This document shows, piece by piece, positions 7,765-16,427 of a DNA stretch of 38,307 bases. The translations under genes and the position numbers were made by a program. The stretch spans positions 1 to 38,307 of the forward strand of contig CALUWA010000020.1 of NCBI GenBank assembly GCA_944324365.1, written 5' to 3'. The stretch's first letter is position 1, and each line of letters begins with the position of its first letter. The notes under the pieces are model-generated. The model made no database searches. It had not been told where the DNA came from and was given only the letters and a program-made list of their open reading frames with translations. The DNA is from Candidatus Gastranaerophilales bacterium. GTDB lineage: Bacteria > Cyanobacteriota > Vampirovibrionia > Gastranaerophilales > Gastranaerophilaceae.

Positions 7765-10700
7765 ATGGCAGAAAAAGTTGATGAAATTGCGGCACTTTTA
7801 GAAAGATTAAAGATAGAAAACGATTTGAATATAAACGAATTTAACAGTATTCTCCTCGATATGAAAACAAAACTGGAGAATATGGATTTTGATAACAGCC
7901 AGATAGGCTCGTTAATCAATGATATTAATGACACAGTAAATTCAAAAATTTCCAAAGATGAAGAAAAGTTTATTGATATAGAAACAACTCTCAGACATCT
8001 GCAGAATTTAGTAGAGAGCGCTAACGATACGGAAAAATATTCAAAACTTCAAGATGAAATAGAAATATTATCTTCAAATTTCAAAGAAGCCGTAGAATCC
8101 ATCGTAAAATTTGCAAACCAGGATGCAGATTCCAAGAATATATTATTTGAAAAAGTAACTTCTCTTGAAACTGCCGTTAAGAATAATGAAGTTATAGATG
8201 TTGTAAAAGAAAAAAGCGAAGATTTAGTAAACAGCTTTGAACATTATACAGCGGATTCTAATTTGCGCCACGGTAACGTTATTTCCGCCATCGCAGACTT
8301 AAGGCATGTTATTGATGATTATTCCGCCAAAAATACATACTTAATTAACACTCTTGAAAATACTGTTTCCGGCAATACACAGCAGCTTGCAAACCTTGAA
8401 GGAACTGTTTCCGCGCAAATGGGGACAGTTAATTCCAAATTATTCACGCTCAGCGATGATATTCATAAAACACTTGATGATGGGTTTGAGCATCTTAAAT
8501 ATTTAAGTACAAATTTGTCCGAATACATGAACAGTAATTCCATTGATATGAAAACAAGTATGGAATGTTTAAGAGCAAATTTGTCTGATTATTCGGAACA
8601 ATTGAAAACGCAGGTTGATAATTTTACCGGAGCTTTTGATCAGAAATTTGCAGATGCATCAAATATTCAAACAAGAAATACACAATCTATTATTGATGAA
8701 ATTACAGCGGCTTGTGCCAAAATTGACGAAAAAGCAATAGAATACGAAAACTCACTCAATGAAAAAACTTCAAAAATATATGAATTTTTGACAGCGTATA
8801 AAGATGCCGTGTCTGTTTTGCAAGATGACAACAAAGACTATTTTGATAAAAAACTTGTGGAATTTGAAACCGGAATAAATGATATATGTTCCGAATATGA
8901 AAATTTATTAAACTCTATTCGCACAAGTCTGGATGAATATTCCTCACAAGTGTCAGAAACGGCAGATTCTGTCGTATTAGGCGTCGTTAACCATAATCAG
9001 GAGTCTATAAACACGCTAAAAGGGGAATTGCTTGCTTCTTCAAATAAAAATTTAGATTCCATAATAGGCAAAATTGACGAAACATCAACTTCAATTAATA
9101 ATTTTAAGGAAGATGTTGCAGATAATTTATCGCAATATTTATCTGCAATAAAAGACTTGTTTGTAGACTATTCAAACCGCATGGATGAGTCTATGCAAGA
9201 TGAAGAAATTATCAATAAGTTATACAAGGTTGAAGAATTAATAAACAACTCAAATGCAGAAAGAAACTCTAATTTTGACATAGTAAGAACAAGTCTTGAA
9301 GAAACAAAATCTTCAATTGCAAATCTTAATTCAACTGTAGAAAACAATCAAAATGAATATATTAACAAATTAAACGAACTTCAAATGATGGTTTCTGATA
9401 ATTCATCAAAAGATGAAATTATCTCAAGATTAAATGAATTGATTTTTAACTCTGACACAGAAAGAAATGCCAATTTTGATATCGTAAGAACAAGTTTAGA
9501 AGAGTCAAAATCCGCTGTTTCAAATCTTGCAGAATTAACTCAAAACTTTAAGGATGATAATTTTAATGAGTTAAGTGAGTTAAAAATGCTTATTGCATCA
9601 TCTTCTGAAAAAGATGAAATCATATCAAGACTTGAAAATTTAATAAACGAAAAAAGTTTAAGCAAAGATGAACAGCTAAAAGAACTAAAAAGAATTGTCG
9701 AAGAATACAATATTCGTATAGACGATATTGCGAACCATAACAAATACCAAAACGATGAAATTTTAATAAGATTTGATGAACTGAAAGGTTTAATCTCTCA
9801 ATCCTCAGAGAGCCGGACAAATTTTGAAAGGATTGAAAACCTTATTAACAATACAAGTGAAGATAAGAACGAAAAGTTGGAATCTTTGCGGAATATCCTT
9901 GCAGAATATAAAAATTCGGTTGAAAAATTAACCGAAGATTTACAGATTCAAAACGGCAACACAACTTCTGATTTGTACGAAATCAAATCTTATTCAAAAG
10001 ATATTCTTCCAAAGCTTGAAGCTTTGCAAAATATTGAGTCTTTAATTCAGAATAAAGCTTCAGATTACAAAGAAAATTTAAGGGCAGAAGTCGGCGCAGT
10101 TCAGGAATCTATCCGGGAAATCATAAAAACAATAAATGAAATTTCAGGAACGGACAGTCCGGAACTTACGGGCAAGCTTGCTTCATTTGAAATGCAGCTT
10201 GGTGAAGCGTCGCACAATTATGAGCAGGGACTGGATGCGCTAAAAACAAGTATAAATGATTATATTTCCGGAATTGAAAAAATCAATACGGAAACGCATT
10301 CGAAACTTGATTTATTCACCGGGGATATTGAAAATATTAAAAATAACTTTGAAGATATTTCTTCAAAAATGTCCACGCTTATCGGAGATTCCGGCCTGAT
10401 TGAAATTTTGGCAAATATCCGCCAGCAGTTCAATCCGATTTTGCAGGCGCTTCATAATGAAAAAGAAGATCTGCACAACTCATTAAATGACGGTATCGAA
10501 TCTGTCAGCAGTAATCTGTACTTAATCGGGCAAAATTTAGAAGAAGTCAGAGTTAAACAAAGTGAAAATGCAGAATATTTAAGAAGCAATTTTGAAGAAA
10601 AAATGCTAGGGCTTCAAGCTGATATAGAACATACCGTTTCAAATATAAAAGAGACCGTTAGCAGCCAGGCAAATGACTTTGCAGAGCAGTTCAACTCATT

Positions 10701-13700
10701 AAAAGAAAATGTTAACGGATTTTTAGGGCTGAATTACGGGCAGTTGATATCCGAAATTAAGGAACAGGTTGAAATTTCTTACGTAAATCTTACCAATCAG
10801 CTAAACAGCTCACTGGAAAATTTCAACTCATTTGAAAAAATCGACAGCTCATACCAAAATGCCGTTGAAAAATTTAATTCATTAGAACAATTTATTCACG
10901 AAACAACAGAAAGCAATATCGGCGAAATTAACCAATCACTTTTAAACCTAAGCACAATGCTTCAGAATAATTTCACGATAACCGAAAGTATTCAAAACTC
11001 GCTGGAAACCGGTATTTTAAAACTCCAAAGCGATATTCAGGAAAATAAAGTTGCAATAAAGAGTTCGCTGGTTGACTTGCTGGAAAATATTAAGTCTTTC
11101 ATAAACGAAAAGAAAACCGGTGATATGGAAGATTTAAGAAGCGCAATTCTGCCGCTTCTGGATAATGAAGAGATGCTTGATGTTATCAAAAGTCTGAATA
11201 AAAACCTTGCGGAAAGACTTGAAGAATGCAGTAAAGAAAACACCCTTGCTTTTCAGGATATTCTTGACATCATAAACTCTGTAAGTAACACCGTAAATTA
11301 CACTATAGAAGTTATTAATGAAAAATTTGAAAATACCGCAGCTTCAAATCAGGAGATTAACCAAAAACTTGACGCGGTAAATTCAAAACTGGATATTATC
11401 GCACTTGATGATAATTCCGAAATAACAGAAACAATTTCCGGCATTGATGAGAGTATATCAGATATAAAAGAAATTATCAGAAATGTTAACAATCTGATTA
11501 CGGAAATAAATGATAATACTACATCCGGCAATTCGGTTATTCCTGCAATACAAATGGGAATTGACCAGCTAAAAGAAGCAGTTTCTCACGCGAAAGAAGA
11601 AATTAAATCAAATCTTGTATATGAGAACGCGTTTAATGAAATTAATTTAAAACTTGATACAATAAATGCTTCCAGCGGAGAAAATATCGAACGTGAATTA
11701 ACCGGGATAAAAAATATTTTATCTTCTGTTGACAACAGGGTAGAAAATACTCTAACTCTGCTTGATTTAGTAAAAGTGCTGGATAACAAGCTGGATATAA
11801 TTGCTCTGAATGATAACTCCGAATTGGAAGAAGATATCCAAACTATAAAAAATGATATCGAAATTATTCGGGAAAGTCTTGAAACAACTAATAAATCCGA
11901 AGAACTGCTAAAAGTTATCAACAACAAACTTGATATTCTGGCGCAGGACAGTGATATTGATTTTGATTTTGAAACAGATATTGAAGCGTACATAAAACCT
12001 AACCTGCTTTCTATTGAAAGCAAGCTGGATAGTTTGGCACAAGCAGATAATATACGCAATATTGACGAGAAATTAAACAGCATCCAATCAAATATTGATT
12101 TAATTCATTCAGTTAACAATAAGCTGGATCTTCTGGCGCAAGCCGATAACAGCGAAATTTTAGACAGCGTTGAAACTATTCACAATGACACTAAAAATAT
12201 TGACGAAAAATTAAATAATATCCAATCAAATACGGATTTAATTCATTCGGTTAATAACAAGCTGGATATTTTGGCGCAAGCTGATAACAGCGAAATCTTG
12301 GACAGTGTTGAAAATATTCACAACACTACGCAGAACATTGACGAAAAATTAAATAATATCCAATCAAATACGGATTTAATTCATTCGGTCAATAACAAGC
12401 TGGATATTTTGGCGCAAGCTGATAACAGCGAAATCTTGGACAGTGTTGAAAATATTCACAACACTACGCAGAACATTGACGAAAAATTAAATAATATCCA
12501 ATCAAATACGGATTTAATTCATTCGGTCAATAATAAGCTGGATATTCTGGCGCAAGCTGATAATAGCGAAATTATAGATAGTGTTGAAACTATTCACAAT
12601 GATACTAAAAATATTGATAATAAGCTGGAAATTATAAAAGCAAATACCGAGTCAAATCCTAAACTTGAAGAGTTAATAAGCACTCTTCACAATAAGGTTG
12701 ATGTTCTGGCAATGTCTGATGACAATGATATTCAGGAAGGCATTACCGAAATCAGAGATTTGATTGAAGAACATATTGCAACGGTAAATTCTGCAAATGT
12801 TCAGGAAGCTTTGCAAAAATTACTCAACCAGATTTCTGCAATTGATTTATCGAAACAGGCAGGCGACATTAAAGATGCCGTAATTTCCGCCGTTATTTCC
12901 GTTTCAAACGAAATATCATTTGTAGAAGAAACAGAAGAAATAAAAGATTTTGTGAACGAAAAAACAAATGAGCTTCACAGAACAATGATGGATGTAAAAC
13001 GCCAGTTATCAACACTAACCTGCAGCGGGGATGATATGGATATTTATTCATATACCCTCCAGGATGTTGAATCAGATATCGCAAAACTGCGACTTATCTT
13101 GAAAGATATGTCCGGCGACTCATCCTCAAACGAAATATGCGTAATATCAAATAATATTTCGAAAATCTCCAGAACGCTGGAACACTTACAGGAAGCTTTC
13201 ACACAAGCAGAACTCAACAAATTTAAAGATGAAAACTTTAATGAACAGATTCTGAGCATCAGTTCAAGACTTAATCAGCTTTTACTAAGCAGAAAAGAAG
13301 TTGATAATATGGTGCTTGCATATCTTAAACAGGCCGCAGGCAGACTTGAACAAATAGATAACAGCGATGTCACCAAAGGGATTGAAGAAGTTCTTGTCGC
13401 GATGGATAAAAAGTTGGAATATTCCAACAACTTAAATACAATCCTTAAAAATGTAATGATGTATTTGGGTGAATGGATGGACGGAACAACCGAAACCATT
13501 TCAAGCATTTACGATAAGAGTTCAAAAATCAATTCACTCACCGACGCAATAAATGACTTGCGCAAATCCGCTCCTGACAGACGAGAACTGGTTGATTTTA
13601 TAGAAGCCAGATTTACTGAACAGGAATCAAAGATTGACAGACTGGAGCGTCAATTGGAAAAAGTTTCCAATGCTCTTGCAATACAGAACCAATCGGCAGT

Positions 13701-13782
13701 TTTGGACAGAATGGATTTAATCGACAATAAACTCGAAAAATTAACTAAAAACATAGAAAAGCTGGCATCGTATGTTGAATAG
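7765..13782 (+). CDS. Giant coiled-coil protein with internal tandem repeats
   Basis: This protein of 2005 residues is predicted to be almost wholly helical, rich in Glu, Asp, Asn, Lys, Ser, Leu and Ile, with heptad-like hydrophobic spacing. No signal peptide, membrane helix or enzymatic motif was seen. Residues ~1432-1615 consist of four 46-residue repeats containing NKLDILAQADNSEI, with a fifth diverged unit; looser forms of NKLDxLAxxDN occur from ~1210 to 1670. A ~70-residue duplication around NFDIVRTSLEE lies near residues 500-600. Scaffold, cytoskeletal or motor-adaptor roles are possible, but none is shown. It is divergent from the oxidoreductase operon and overlaps the next gene by 11 bp. 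Confidence 0.9.
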   Translation: MAEKVDEIAALLERLKIENDLNINEFNSILLDMKTKLENMDFDNSQIGSLINDINDTVNSKISKDEEKFIDIETTLRHLQNLVESANDTEKYSKLQDEIEILSSNFKEAVESIVKFANQDADSKNILFEKVTSLETAVKNNEVIDVVKEKSEDLVNSFEHYTADSNLRHGNVISAIADLRHVIDDYSAKNTYLINTLENTVSGNTQQLANLEGTVSAQMGTVNSKLFTLSDDIHKTLDDGFEHLKYLSTNLSEYMNSNSIDMKTSMECLRANLSDYSEQLKTQVDNFTGAFDQKFADASNIQTRNTQSIIDEITAACAKIDEKAIEYENSLNEKTSKIYEFLTAYKDAVSVLQDDNKDYFDKKLVEFETGINDICSEYENLLNSIRTSLDEYSSQVSETADSVVLGVVNHNQESINTLKGELLASSNKNLDSIIGKIDETSTSINNFKEDVADNLSQYLSAIKDLFVDYSNRMDESMQDEEIINKLYKVEELINNSNAERNSNFDIVRTSLEETKSSIANLNSTVENNQNEYINKLNELQMMVSDNSSKDEIISRLNELIFNSDTERNANFDIVRTSLEESKSAVSNLAELTQNFKDDNFNELSELKMLIASSSEKDEIISRLENLINEKSLSKDEQLKELKRIVEEYNIRIDDIANHNKYQNDEILIRFDELKGLISQSSESRTNFERIENLINNTSEDKNEKLESLRNILAEYKNSVEKLTEDLQIQNGNTTSDLYEIKSYSKDILPKLEALQNIESLIQNKASDYKENLRAEVGAVQESIREIIKTINEISGTDSPELTGKLASFEMQLGEASHNYEQGLDALKTSINDYISGIEKINTETHSKLDLFTGDIENIKNNFEDISSKMSTLIGDSGLIEILANIRQQFNPILQALHNEKEDLHNSLNDGIESVSSNLYLIGQNLEEVRVKQSENAEYLRSNFEEKMLGLQADIEHTVSNIKETVSSQANDFAEQFNSLKENVNGFLGLNYGQLISEIKEQVEISYVNLTNQLNSSLENFNSFEKIDSSYQNAVEKFNSLEQFIHETTESNIGEINQSLLNLSTMLQNNFTITESIQNSLETGILKLQSDIQENKVAIKSSLVDLLENIKSFINEKKTGDMEDLRSAILPLLDNEEMLDVIKSLNKNLAERLEECSKENTLAFQDILDIINSVSNTVNYTIEVINEKFENTAASNQEINQKLDAVNSKLDIIALDDNSEITETISGIDESISDIKEIIRNVNNLITEINDNTTSGNSVIPAIQMGIDQLKEAVSHAKEEIKSNLVYENAFNEINLKLDTINASSGENIERELTGIKNILSSVDNRVENTLTLLDLVKVLDNKLDIIALNDNSELEEDIQTIKNDIEIIRESLETTNKSEELLKVINNKLDILAQDSDIDFDFETDIEAYIKPNLLSIESKLDSLAQADNIRNIDEKLNSIQSNIDLIHSVNNKLDLLAQADNSEILDSVETIHNDTKNIDEKLNNIQSNTDLIHSVNNKLDILAQADNSEILDSVENIHNTTQNIDEKLNNIQSNTDLIHSVNNKLDILAQADNSEILDSVENIHNTTQNIDEKLNNIQSNTDLIHSVNNKLDILAQADNSEIIDSVETIHNDTKNIDNKLEIIKANTESNPKLEELISTLHNKVDVLAMSDDNDIQEGITEIRDLIEEHIATVNSANVQEALQKLLNQISAIDLSKQAGDIKDAVISAVISVSNEISFVEETEEIKDFVNEKTNELHRTMMDVKRQLSTLTCSGDDMDIYSYTLQDVESDIAKLRLILKDMSGDSSSNEICVISNNISKISRTLEHLQEAFTQAELNKFKDENFNEQILSISSRLNQLLLSRKEVDNMVLAYLKQAAGRLEQIDNSDVTKGIEEVLVAMDKKLEYSNNLNTILKNVMMYLGEWMDGTTETISSIYDKSSKINSLTDAINDLRKSAPDRRELVDFIEARFTEQESKIDRLERQLEKVSNALAIQNQSAVLDRMDLIDNKLEKLTKNIEKLASYVE
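12058..12747 (+). repeat. 138-bp in-frame tandem repeat (about five units)
   Basis: Units begin at 12058, 12196, 12334, 12472 and 12610, each exactly 138 bp apart (46 codons). Units two (12196) and three (12334) differ at only two positions by eye, unit four (12472) at more, and units one and five are clearly diverged. The near identity includes third codon positions, so duplication was recent. The repeat lies inside the giant coiled-coil gene and preserves the frame. Confidence 0.93.
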
Positions 13783-15177: not shown

Positions 15178-15231
15178 TTGAATTCCATCCGAAAATAGTT
15201 TATACTAAGAAAATAAAGGAGGTTGAATATG
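15178..15231 (+). promoter_or_regulatory. Promoter, Shine-Dalgarno and start codon of the prepilin locus
   Basis: TTGAAT (15178-15183) and TATACT (15201-15206) are 17 bp apart. AAAGGAGGT (15215-15223) precedes ATG 15229 by 5 nt. This is a complete expression signal, but the frame it opens ends after 17 codons at TAA 15280-15282, just past a run of eight G (15265-15272). Confidence 0.7.
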
Positions 15232-15250
15232 CAAAATGCAAGAATAGTCA

Positions 15251-16390
15251 ATGTTTTACAGGGAGGGGGGGGCTCCTTCTAAGTTAAAACAAGGGTTTGC
15301 ACCCATTAGCCATTGCGGCAATTTCGGGATTTTAAGGGGTTTAATCAGAAGGTTTTATAAACTCGTCATTGCGAGGCCGAAGGCCGAAGCAATCCAGGAA
15401 AAAAGATCGCGGACAAACCTTTGGTTTTCCGTGATGACATGTGGCTGGTGGAATGTGCCAAAATATGTCATCGCGCACTTGTTGCGCAATCTATGGATTG
15501 CTTCGTCGCAAGCTCCTCGCAATGACGGGGAAATTTTGCTTAGCAACCCTCTAATCCGACATCGCAATGACATTAACGGTCATTCTGAGGGTGGAGCCCG
15601 AAGAATCCCGTTTAATAAGAGATCCTTCGCTGTCGCTCAGGATGACGGGAAAAAGAGATCCTTCGGATTTCATCCTCAGAATGACATAGAGAAGCAAGCA
15701 GCATTCACGCTTGCGGAAGTGCTTATTACTTTAGGCATAATCGGCATTGTTGCGGCGATGACTTTACCGACGTTATTAAGCAATGTTCAGGACAAGATAT
15801 TGGAAAGCGAGAGCAAAAAAGCTGCAAATATTGTCGCGAACGGTTACAAACTTATGATGGCGCACGATGAGATTTTTAGAATTTCAGATATTCCTTTTTG
15901 GAACTGCAACAGCATAGAGTGCGTATCTGTCGAACACAAAAAAGTGTTTAACATCTCTAATGATAATCAAGCTGTTTTAGAGAACTTGAAGAATGTAAAG
16001 TATTACAATTCGAAAAACCAGGCGATACCGTTTAGCTGGGAGCGGGAACCCGTTTATGCATTTATAACAACTGACGGTTTTGCGTACGGAGTGCTGCAAC
16101 CCGATTTTGATGCCTTGGGCTATGTAAACACATTTGACATAATAGCTGATGTTAATGCGAACAACAACCCGAACAGAGTTGCTAAAGATTTGCACAAATA
16201 CCGTTTCAGCGGTGAGGGAGGACAGTTGTTTGATGTAACTGATGAGCTGGAACAGGTATCGGAATGCAGTATTGATAACCCTGAAGGCTGTACTACAAGA
16301 GAAGAATGCTTTTCATTGCCAACAGGTGTTGGTGTCTGTGCTCAATGGAAGAATAATAAATGTTCTATTATTAATAATTGTGCAGTATGA
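15251..16390 (+). CDS. Prepilin-like protein with element-filled, out-of-frame 5' region
   Basis: From the Phe codon at 15704 the product has a type IV/II pilin N-terminus (FTLAEVLITLGIIGIVAA, then a hydrophobic helix) and a ~229-residue globular part with six or more cysteines towards the C-terminus. No in-frame ATG, GTG or TTG lies near that core. The open frame reaches back to ATG 15251 through two palindromic elements (15364-15527, 15581-15683), but the codon with promoter and Shine-Dalgarno is 15229, in another frame. Loss of one G from the G8 tract would fuse them into one ~386-residue product. It may be phase-variable, frameshifted or a decaying gene. The normal short basic leader is missing. 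Confidence 0.6.
   Translation: MFYREGGAPSKLKQGFAPISHCGNFGILRGLIRRFYKLVIARPKAEAIQEKRSRTNLWFSVMTCGWWNVPKYVIAHLLRNLWIASSQAPRNDGEILLSNPLIRHRNDINGHSEGGARRIPFNKRSFAVAQDDGKKRSFGFHPQNDIEKQAAFTLAEVLITLGIIGIVAAMTLPTLLSNVQDKILESESKKAANIVANGYKLMMAHDEIFRISDIPFWNCNSIECVSVEHKKVFNISNDNQAVLENLKNVKYYNSKNQAIPFSWEREPVYAFITTDGFAYGVLQPDFDALGYVNTFDIIADVNANNNPNRVAKDLHKYRFSGEGGQLFDVTDELEQVSECSIDNPEGCTTREECFSLPTGVGVCAQWKNNKCSIINNCAV
15364..15527 (+). repeat. Dispersed palindromic element, copy 3 (within prepilin frame)
   Basis: This segment begins CGTCATTGCGAGG, has GAAGCAATCCAGG, and ends with GGATTGCTTCGTCGC and CTCGCAATGACG, the same core as the copies at 56-215 and 27667-27825 but more diverged inside. It lies in the 5' part of the prepilin frame and keeps that frame open. 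Confidence 0.8.
15581..15683 (+). repeat. Second palindromic element family (within prepilin frame)
   Basis: The ends are CATTCTGAGG (15581-15590) and CCTCAGAATG (15674-15683), perfect inverted repeats of 10 bp. Inside are two GATCCTTCG motifs and a CTCAGGATGAC motif. It is unrelated in sequence to the CATTGCGAG element beside it and ends 20 bp before the pilin core codon. Confidence 0.7.
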
Positions 16391-16396
16391 GCACAC

Positions 16397-16427
16397 AAAA
16401 AAGCCGGATATATATCCGGCTTTTTTT
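16397..16427. terminator. Bidirectional rho-independent terminator
   Basis: AAGCCGGATAT and ATATCCGGCTT form a perfect 22-bp palindrome (16401-16422), flanked by A-runs and T-runs. It ends the prepilin unit on the plus strand and the foldase unit on the minus strand. Confidence 0.9.

Follow-up and report, generated by a model that had tools for sequence, protein, structure and literature searches.

A prepilin gene whose start codon and pilin core lie in different reading frames, on either side of a run of eight G, raises the question of whether it is switched on and off, recoded during its expression or simply dead. The locus lies in a window of 38,307 nt (the whole stretch of DNA analysed here), on contig C20 of a 2.05 Mb, 99.8% complete genome (G000, the own genome in what follows) of Gastranaerophilales, uncultured gut relatives of cyanobacteria whose surface biology is almost unknown. 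A sequence-only reading had left the three explanations side by side. Going beyond it, the system is found to be genome-wide and family-wide, with a linker made of dispersed repeats, and sequence comparison makes it probable that the window gene is a member of a large poly-G phase-variable, default-OFF type IV prepilin-like repertoire.

Anatomy and reading frame of the window gene

On the forward strand, a sigma-70-like promoter (TTGAAT-N17-TATACT, 15178 to 15206) and a Shine-Dalgarno (SD) sequence (AAGGAGG, 15216 to 15222) can be read in the window ahead of an ATG at 15229. The leader starting there has 12 codons (MQNARIVNVLQG, 15229 to 15264) and ends in GGGA (15261 to 15264), which adjoins the G8 run (15265 to 15272), so that the window run is really an interrupted G3-A-G8. 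Sequence and family comparison designate the G8 as the putative switch site, OFF in this assembly: the frame opened by ATG 15229 reads MQNARIVNVLQGGGGSF, 17 codons through the G8, and is then closed by a TAA (15280 to 15282). The linker that follows on the same strand (431 nt, 15273 to 15703) holds no stop in the pilin frame versus 7 and 12 in the two others, and most of it consists of dispersed genomic repeats (CGTCATTGCGAGG..., TCATTCTGAGG... and GGATCCTTCG-like, 15364 to 15720, forward strand), which match the genome at about 100 sites. The prepilin core FTLAEVLITLGIIG begins at 15704 in the neighbouring frame, inside an ORF of 379 codons (15251 to 16390); translation gives a body of 228 aa plus stop (15704 to 16390, forward strand) with the FTLAEVLITLGIIGIVAAMTLP core, a C-terminal head and A at position -1. 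Past its end, a palindrome AGCCGGATATATATCCGGCT followed by a T-run (16402 to 16421, assigned to neither strand and read by eye) is terminator-like and lies between convergent genes.

Promoter, SD, ATG, stop after 17 codons, G8, core and ORF all lie where the sequence-only reading had placed them. Its statement that the two frames are joined by removing one G or adding two also holds, since ATG and core are separated by a distance of 1 mod 3. The window gene is therefore OFF by one G in this sequence, and its run, short and interrupted, may be locked. A lone G8 in the 38-kb window is weak evidence in itself (0.22 expected; at least one in 15 of 100 shuffles), and its significance comes from the genome-wide pattern and not from the window alone.

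The window core fits the class III signal peptide pattern, with G/A(-1), F(+1), E(+5) and a hydrophobic core (AFTLAEVLITLGIIGIVAAMTLP), and the PF07963 N_methyl match to the gene scores 15.4 bits against a cut-off of 21.2, thus falling short of it. The structure model of the protein, a poor one with a mean pLDDT of 62, has a helix at residues 4-54 and then strands, and a fold search with this low-confidence model against the PDB gave no significant match. A prepilin peptidase is encoded in the own genome (PF06750, C23:19144-19392, 121 bits). Among the genes sampled, 145 carry A at -1 and 68 carry G; most of those with long linkers have A rather than the usual G.

G-runs and prepilins in the own genome

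A search with the window pilin revealed about 58 prepilin cores or genes in the own genome, the window paralogues being 53-77% identical, and about 100 matches to the leader-linker DNA, which comprise leader regions 5' of other prepilins and the dispersed linker repeats. The dispersed palindromic repeats (CGTCATTGCGAGG and TCATTCTGAGG types, about 100 places) are read in frame as prepilin linkers. The survey covered 91 stretches, in which 37 runs of at least 8 G explain 148 of the 149 overlapping G8 words of the genome. Such runs lie between an SD/ATG leader and a prepilin-type gene in 32 of the 37 cases. Of the five others, one falls in between other genes or at their edge and four are in glycan genes, named from reading their translations: runs of G11-G13 occur in three adjacent glycosyltransferase-like genes (L089, G000:C1:205500-211000), and a G14 inside a pyruvyl-transferase-like gene leaves its halves out of frame (L091, C4:67500-71500). 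These glycan runs likely mark phase-variable surface glycans. About a dozen prepilins of the genome have no run and carry a normal short leader, with the ATG directly before the core.

The leaders fall into families, tallied by the author's own grouping of the listed loci. Family A (MQKxSIARxY-Gn-TATCTACATC) is in frame at G9 and has mostly G10; family B (MLKSENTDYT..ILQ-Gn-CTAGACTC) is in frame at G11 and has mostly G12; the other leaders have G11-G14. A TTTATACT(A/G)A(G/A)... stretch of the window promoter region recurs 5' of MQK-type family A leaders.

The same design in relatives

The relatives in the collection are mostly Candidatus Gastranaerophilales MAGs. The SD-ATG-N20..45-G8 pattern was found in 20 of the 57, with dozens of sites in several genomes, and the reversed pattern, used as a control, gave near-zero matches. 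Leaders differ between genera and the design is the same; a leader similar to that of the window gene is present in G011 (MQNAIIVRISPI). Only leaders with an SD entered the analysis, and the SDs are mostly strong. The prepilin family is very large in three genomes of about 2 Mb, with 150 cores in G011, 113 in G018 and 84 in G033, not all of which have runs. Outside the family, one G10 run lies 5' of a prepilin-type gene in G051, which belongs to another family of the same order. Synteny was followed through the upstream FAD oxidase at 80 loci, one of which (L096) has a G-run prepilin directly 3', with a body not close to that of the window gene. In the window, this oxidase adjoins a 2005-aa protein (7765 to 13782) with only a weak, below cut-off Apolipoprotein match.

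A different layout is seen in about 20 pilins of G021 (L285-L304, L471-L481), where leader, G11 and stop are followed by a conserved, roughly 160-nt spacer that contains a terminator-like hairpin, and then by a separate SD-ATG pilin start. Since stops are present in all frames after the leader and G-run, and the pilin has its own start, the G-run cannot switch the pilin frame there; the conserved leader ORF may have another role, perhaps attenuation. Separately, one contig end (L186, G031:C149) carries runs of 31-41 G, which are probably a sequencing artefact.

Reading frames and linkers across 12 genomes

A uniform script applied to 12 genomes, G021 excluded, found 191 genes with leader, run and core. 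The linker is stop-free in the pilin frame in 181 of them, a count that may be slightly biased toward open linkers, as the script picks the frame with fewest stops when there is more than one core match. Of the 113 linkers of at least 90 nt, 103 have no stop in the pilin frame, compared with 0 and 1 in the other two. There is thus strong sequence evidence that linker and pilin, the former from 1 to more than 600 nt long and often repeat DNA, would be translated as one, with the leader as their start. Re-initiation past the leader stop was considered and rejected, as inspection of the family linkers by eye showed no usable pilin-frame start beyond the run.

The 181 intact genes divide into 22 in frame, 145 in the commonest OFF frame of their genome and 14 in the other frame. 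That commonest frame corresponds to one G too many in the own genome, G011, G020, G024 and the small samples, and to one G too few in G017, G018 and G033. Run lengths in the family range over 7-15, mostly 8-13, and the phase is constant even where edge substitutions alter the run length. With constant phase and one dominant OFF frame, the runs do not seem to be hypermutating freely in the long term. A universal favoured run length was rejected as the origin of the single OFF phase, because lengths of 10, 12 and 14 in G000 and of 11-15 in G024 keep the same phase. Shared descent of a few leader families explains much of the single OFF frame, not clearly all of it; it is a speculation that the default OFF state lies a single step away from ON, along the direction that slippage favours.

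The main rival of a DNA-level switch is programmed recoding, whereby the G-run would be slippery for the ribosome or RNA polymerase and allow low-level expression from a DNA sequence fixed out of frame. The dominance of one OFF frame in each genome (145 versus 14), kept while the run length varies, is what such recoding would produce, as are the stops that most genomes show in this frame 0-5 codons past the run. The needed shift, however, is uniform within most genomes and opposite between genera, instead of having a conserved site and direction. The dominant frame of G018 is not the one with the tighter stop, which also removes the tight stop as a universal cause of the OFF frame. In-frame copies exist, interrupted runs hold phase with the genes mostly intact, and transcriptional slippage usually takes place on A/T runs (PMC3711429). 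Recoding is consequently held to be unlikely.

Selection and run-length differences between paralogues

Full-length bodies of at least 190 aa are found in 169 of the 181 intact genes, some of the shorter ones being cut by locus ends. The median dN/dS is 0.22 in 40 OFF-OFF pairs and likewise 0.22 in 16 ON-OFF pairs, these pairs being not independent and some coming from G021; for one pair of the own genome, both OFF (L018/L081), it is 0.06 at a dS of 0.39. As full-length pilins under purifying selection, the OFF genes are not pseudogenes. The dead gene of the sequence-only reading, or a sequencing error in the G-run, would agree with the error-prone nature of poly-G and with a window run that is interrupted and off by one. 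It is nevertheless very improbable, given that about 190 genes in 12 genomes share the same design, that OFF paralogues keep intact pilins and stop-free linkers under this selection, and that Campylobacter runs are read accurately on Illumina (PMC6321876).

A second alternative is that out-of-frame copies form a silent library whose sequences feed, by recombination, into a few expressed pilin loci, like pilS into pilE in Neisseria. Leader families and bodies are indeed mixed, as the nearest relative of the window body (on C14, 77% identical) carries a family A leader, a different family from that of the window leader; the shared linker repeats would provide homology, and the 22 in-frame copies could serve as expression sites. 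Donors, however, would need neither SD nor ATG nor a kept G-run, and the selection on the bodies fits direct expression, which leaves a pure donor role improbable. Recombination may act in addition to direct expression.

Run lengths were compared between paralogues, with one consensus assembly per species, and vary within leader families in most well-sampled genomes. In the own genome, family B has G11 (ON) and G12 (OFF) and family A has G9 and G10; within leader families of relatives, G11, G12 and G13 occur in G020 and G8, G10 and G11 in G017. Two pairs have nearly identical flanks: L037 and L038 of the own genome, with 5 mismatches in 120, have G11 (ON) and G12 (OFF), and a tandem pair in G033, with 3 mismatches in 120, has G10 and G12. 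Most close pairs share their run length, so that long-term length change appears constrained. A search for same-species variation in viral contigs with two leader sequences gave no match. Loss of mismatch repair was rejected as an explanation, since MutS1 occurs in relatives whether or not they have runs, and nothing points to a general rise in slippage.

Among the explanations of the sequence-only reading, the on/off switch is the best supported, because paralogues with near-identical flanks differ by one or two G, in-frame copies exist and glycan genes have G-runs as well.

Proposed mechanism and known systems

In the proposed poly-G switch, the promoter and a strong SD would drive a leader of about 10-14 codons into the G-run, where slipped-strand mispairing during replication in living populations would gain or lose single G's and so set the frame. 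In the ON state, translation would continue as oligo-glycine and then across the linker, whose length ranges from nearly nil to over 600 nt, until it reaches the prepilin; cleavage before F(+1) by the prepilin peptidase would subsequently remove leader and linker. Both would be disposable after cleavage, and any linker length would therefore be tolerated provided that it is open. In the OFF state, translation would mostly end within a few codons of the run. With most copies OFF and one G from ON, each cell would display few of its many pilins.

In Neisseria, poly-G switches the adhesin gene pilC on and off, and the pilin varies by recombination between pilE and pilS. Pilus-related surface variation and poly-G slippage in a 5' coding region are common to both systems, but unlike pilC alone, many prepilin genes here each have their own G-run. 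Rickettsia palindromic elements are translated inside genes and are, like the present linkers, dispersed repeats read in frame within coding sequence; here, on the other hand, the repeats lie 5' of the core, in the part that the prepilin peptidase should remove.

The Campylobacter phasome, analysed with PhasomeIt, comprises 5-81 switchable genes per strain with G9 and G10 as the commonest lengths (PMC6321876), and shares with the present system coding G-runs in many genes, single-G frame switching, narrow lengths and disrupted runs. The narrow run-length distribution and interrupted runs were counted in favour of the proposed switch because of this resemblance (PMC6321876). In Campylobacter, many unrelated genes are concerned, largely glycan-modifying (PMC8437040), whereas here one paralogous prepilin family has a shared leader cassette, tens of copies, a strong OFF bias, a repeat-built linker and the orientation lock described below.

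For a termite-gut member of the group, pilA-D genes have been listed (PMC5877343). Searches of the open-licence literature yielded no description of phase variation or of pilins with G-runs for the group, an absence that is not proof, and no precedent for the scale, host group and leader-linker design. If the proposed switch is real, tens to perhaps more than 100 pilins each held off by a G-run would make an unusually large single-family phase-variable repertoire, and roles in adhesion, immune evasion or phage avoidance could be tested from existing metagenome reads.

Orientation of the runs relative to GC skew

The finding of 33 of 34 G018 runs on one strand triggered an orientation test, in which the strand of each run was compared with the GC skew of 20-kb stretches, then with the pilins masked, and then with a codon-third-position skew balanced over coding strands, GC skew serving as a proxy for replication direction. 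In G017, G018, G021, G024 and G033, 68 of 70 runs lie on the G-rich, presumed leading strand by the codon measure; for long ORFs taken from the same regions in five genomes, the share is only 63% (377:226). Prepilins without runs are mixed in orientation (13:10). In the own genome, total skew puts all 5 family A leaders on the leading strand and codon skew puts 4 of them there, with the fifth close to zero, and the 11 family B leaders and all 7 others, the window gene included, are on the opposite one (0:18), family borders having been drawn there partly after the orientation was seen. The families of G011, named beforehand, are an independent check: MEK/MGK leaders give 12:0 and MLK/MQN leaders 0:9. 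Pooled over oppositely oriented families, the runs do not differ from the ORFs (p 0.11), so that the effect is family-specific.

Such a lock suggests that the cassette is subject to a process at the DNA level, which could be replication slippage, fork-linked spread or the purging of copies liable to cause harmful inversions, and was for that reason counted in favour of the poly-G switch; recoding does not predict it. One may tentatively go further and regard leader and G-run as a modular 5' cassette passed from one pilin gene to another by a DNA process linked to replication, with each family orientation-locked to the fork and a default-OFF switch set on up to about 150 pilins per cell, although this extended scheme is rather less probable than not. 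The single OFF frame per genome and the orientation lock bear on the birth, spread and default state of contingency loci.

As a separate observation, contigs C1-C8 of G018 (L451-L462) have a positive forward-strand GC skew in 12 of 12 sampled stretches of 18-20 kb on six contigs; these contigs seem pre-oriented, or the assembly unusual.
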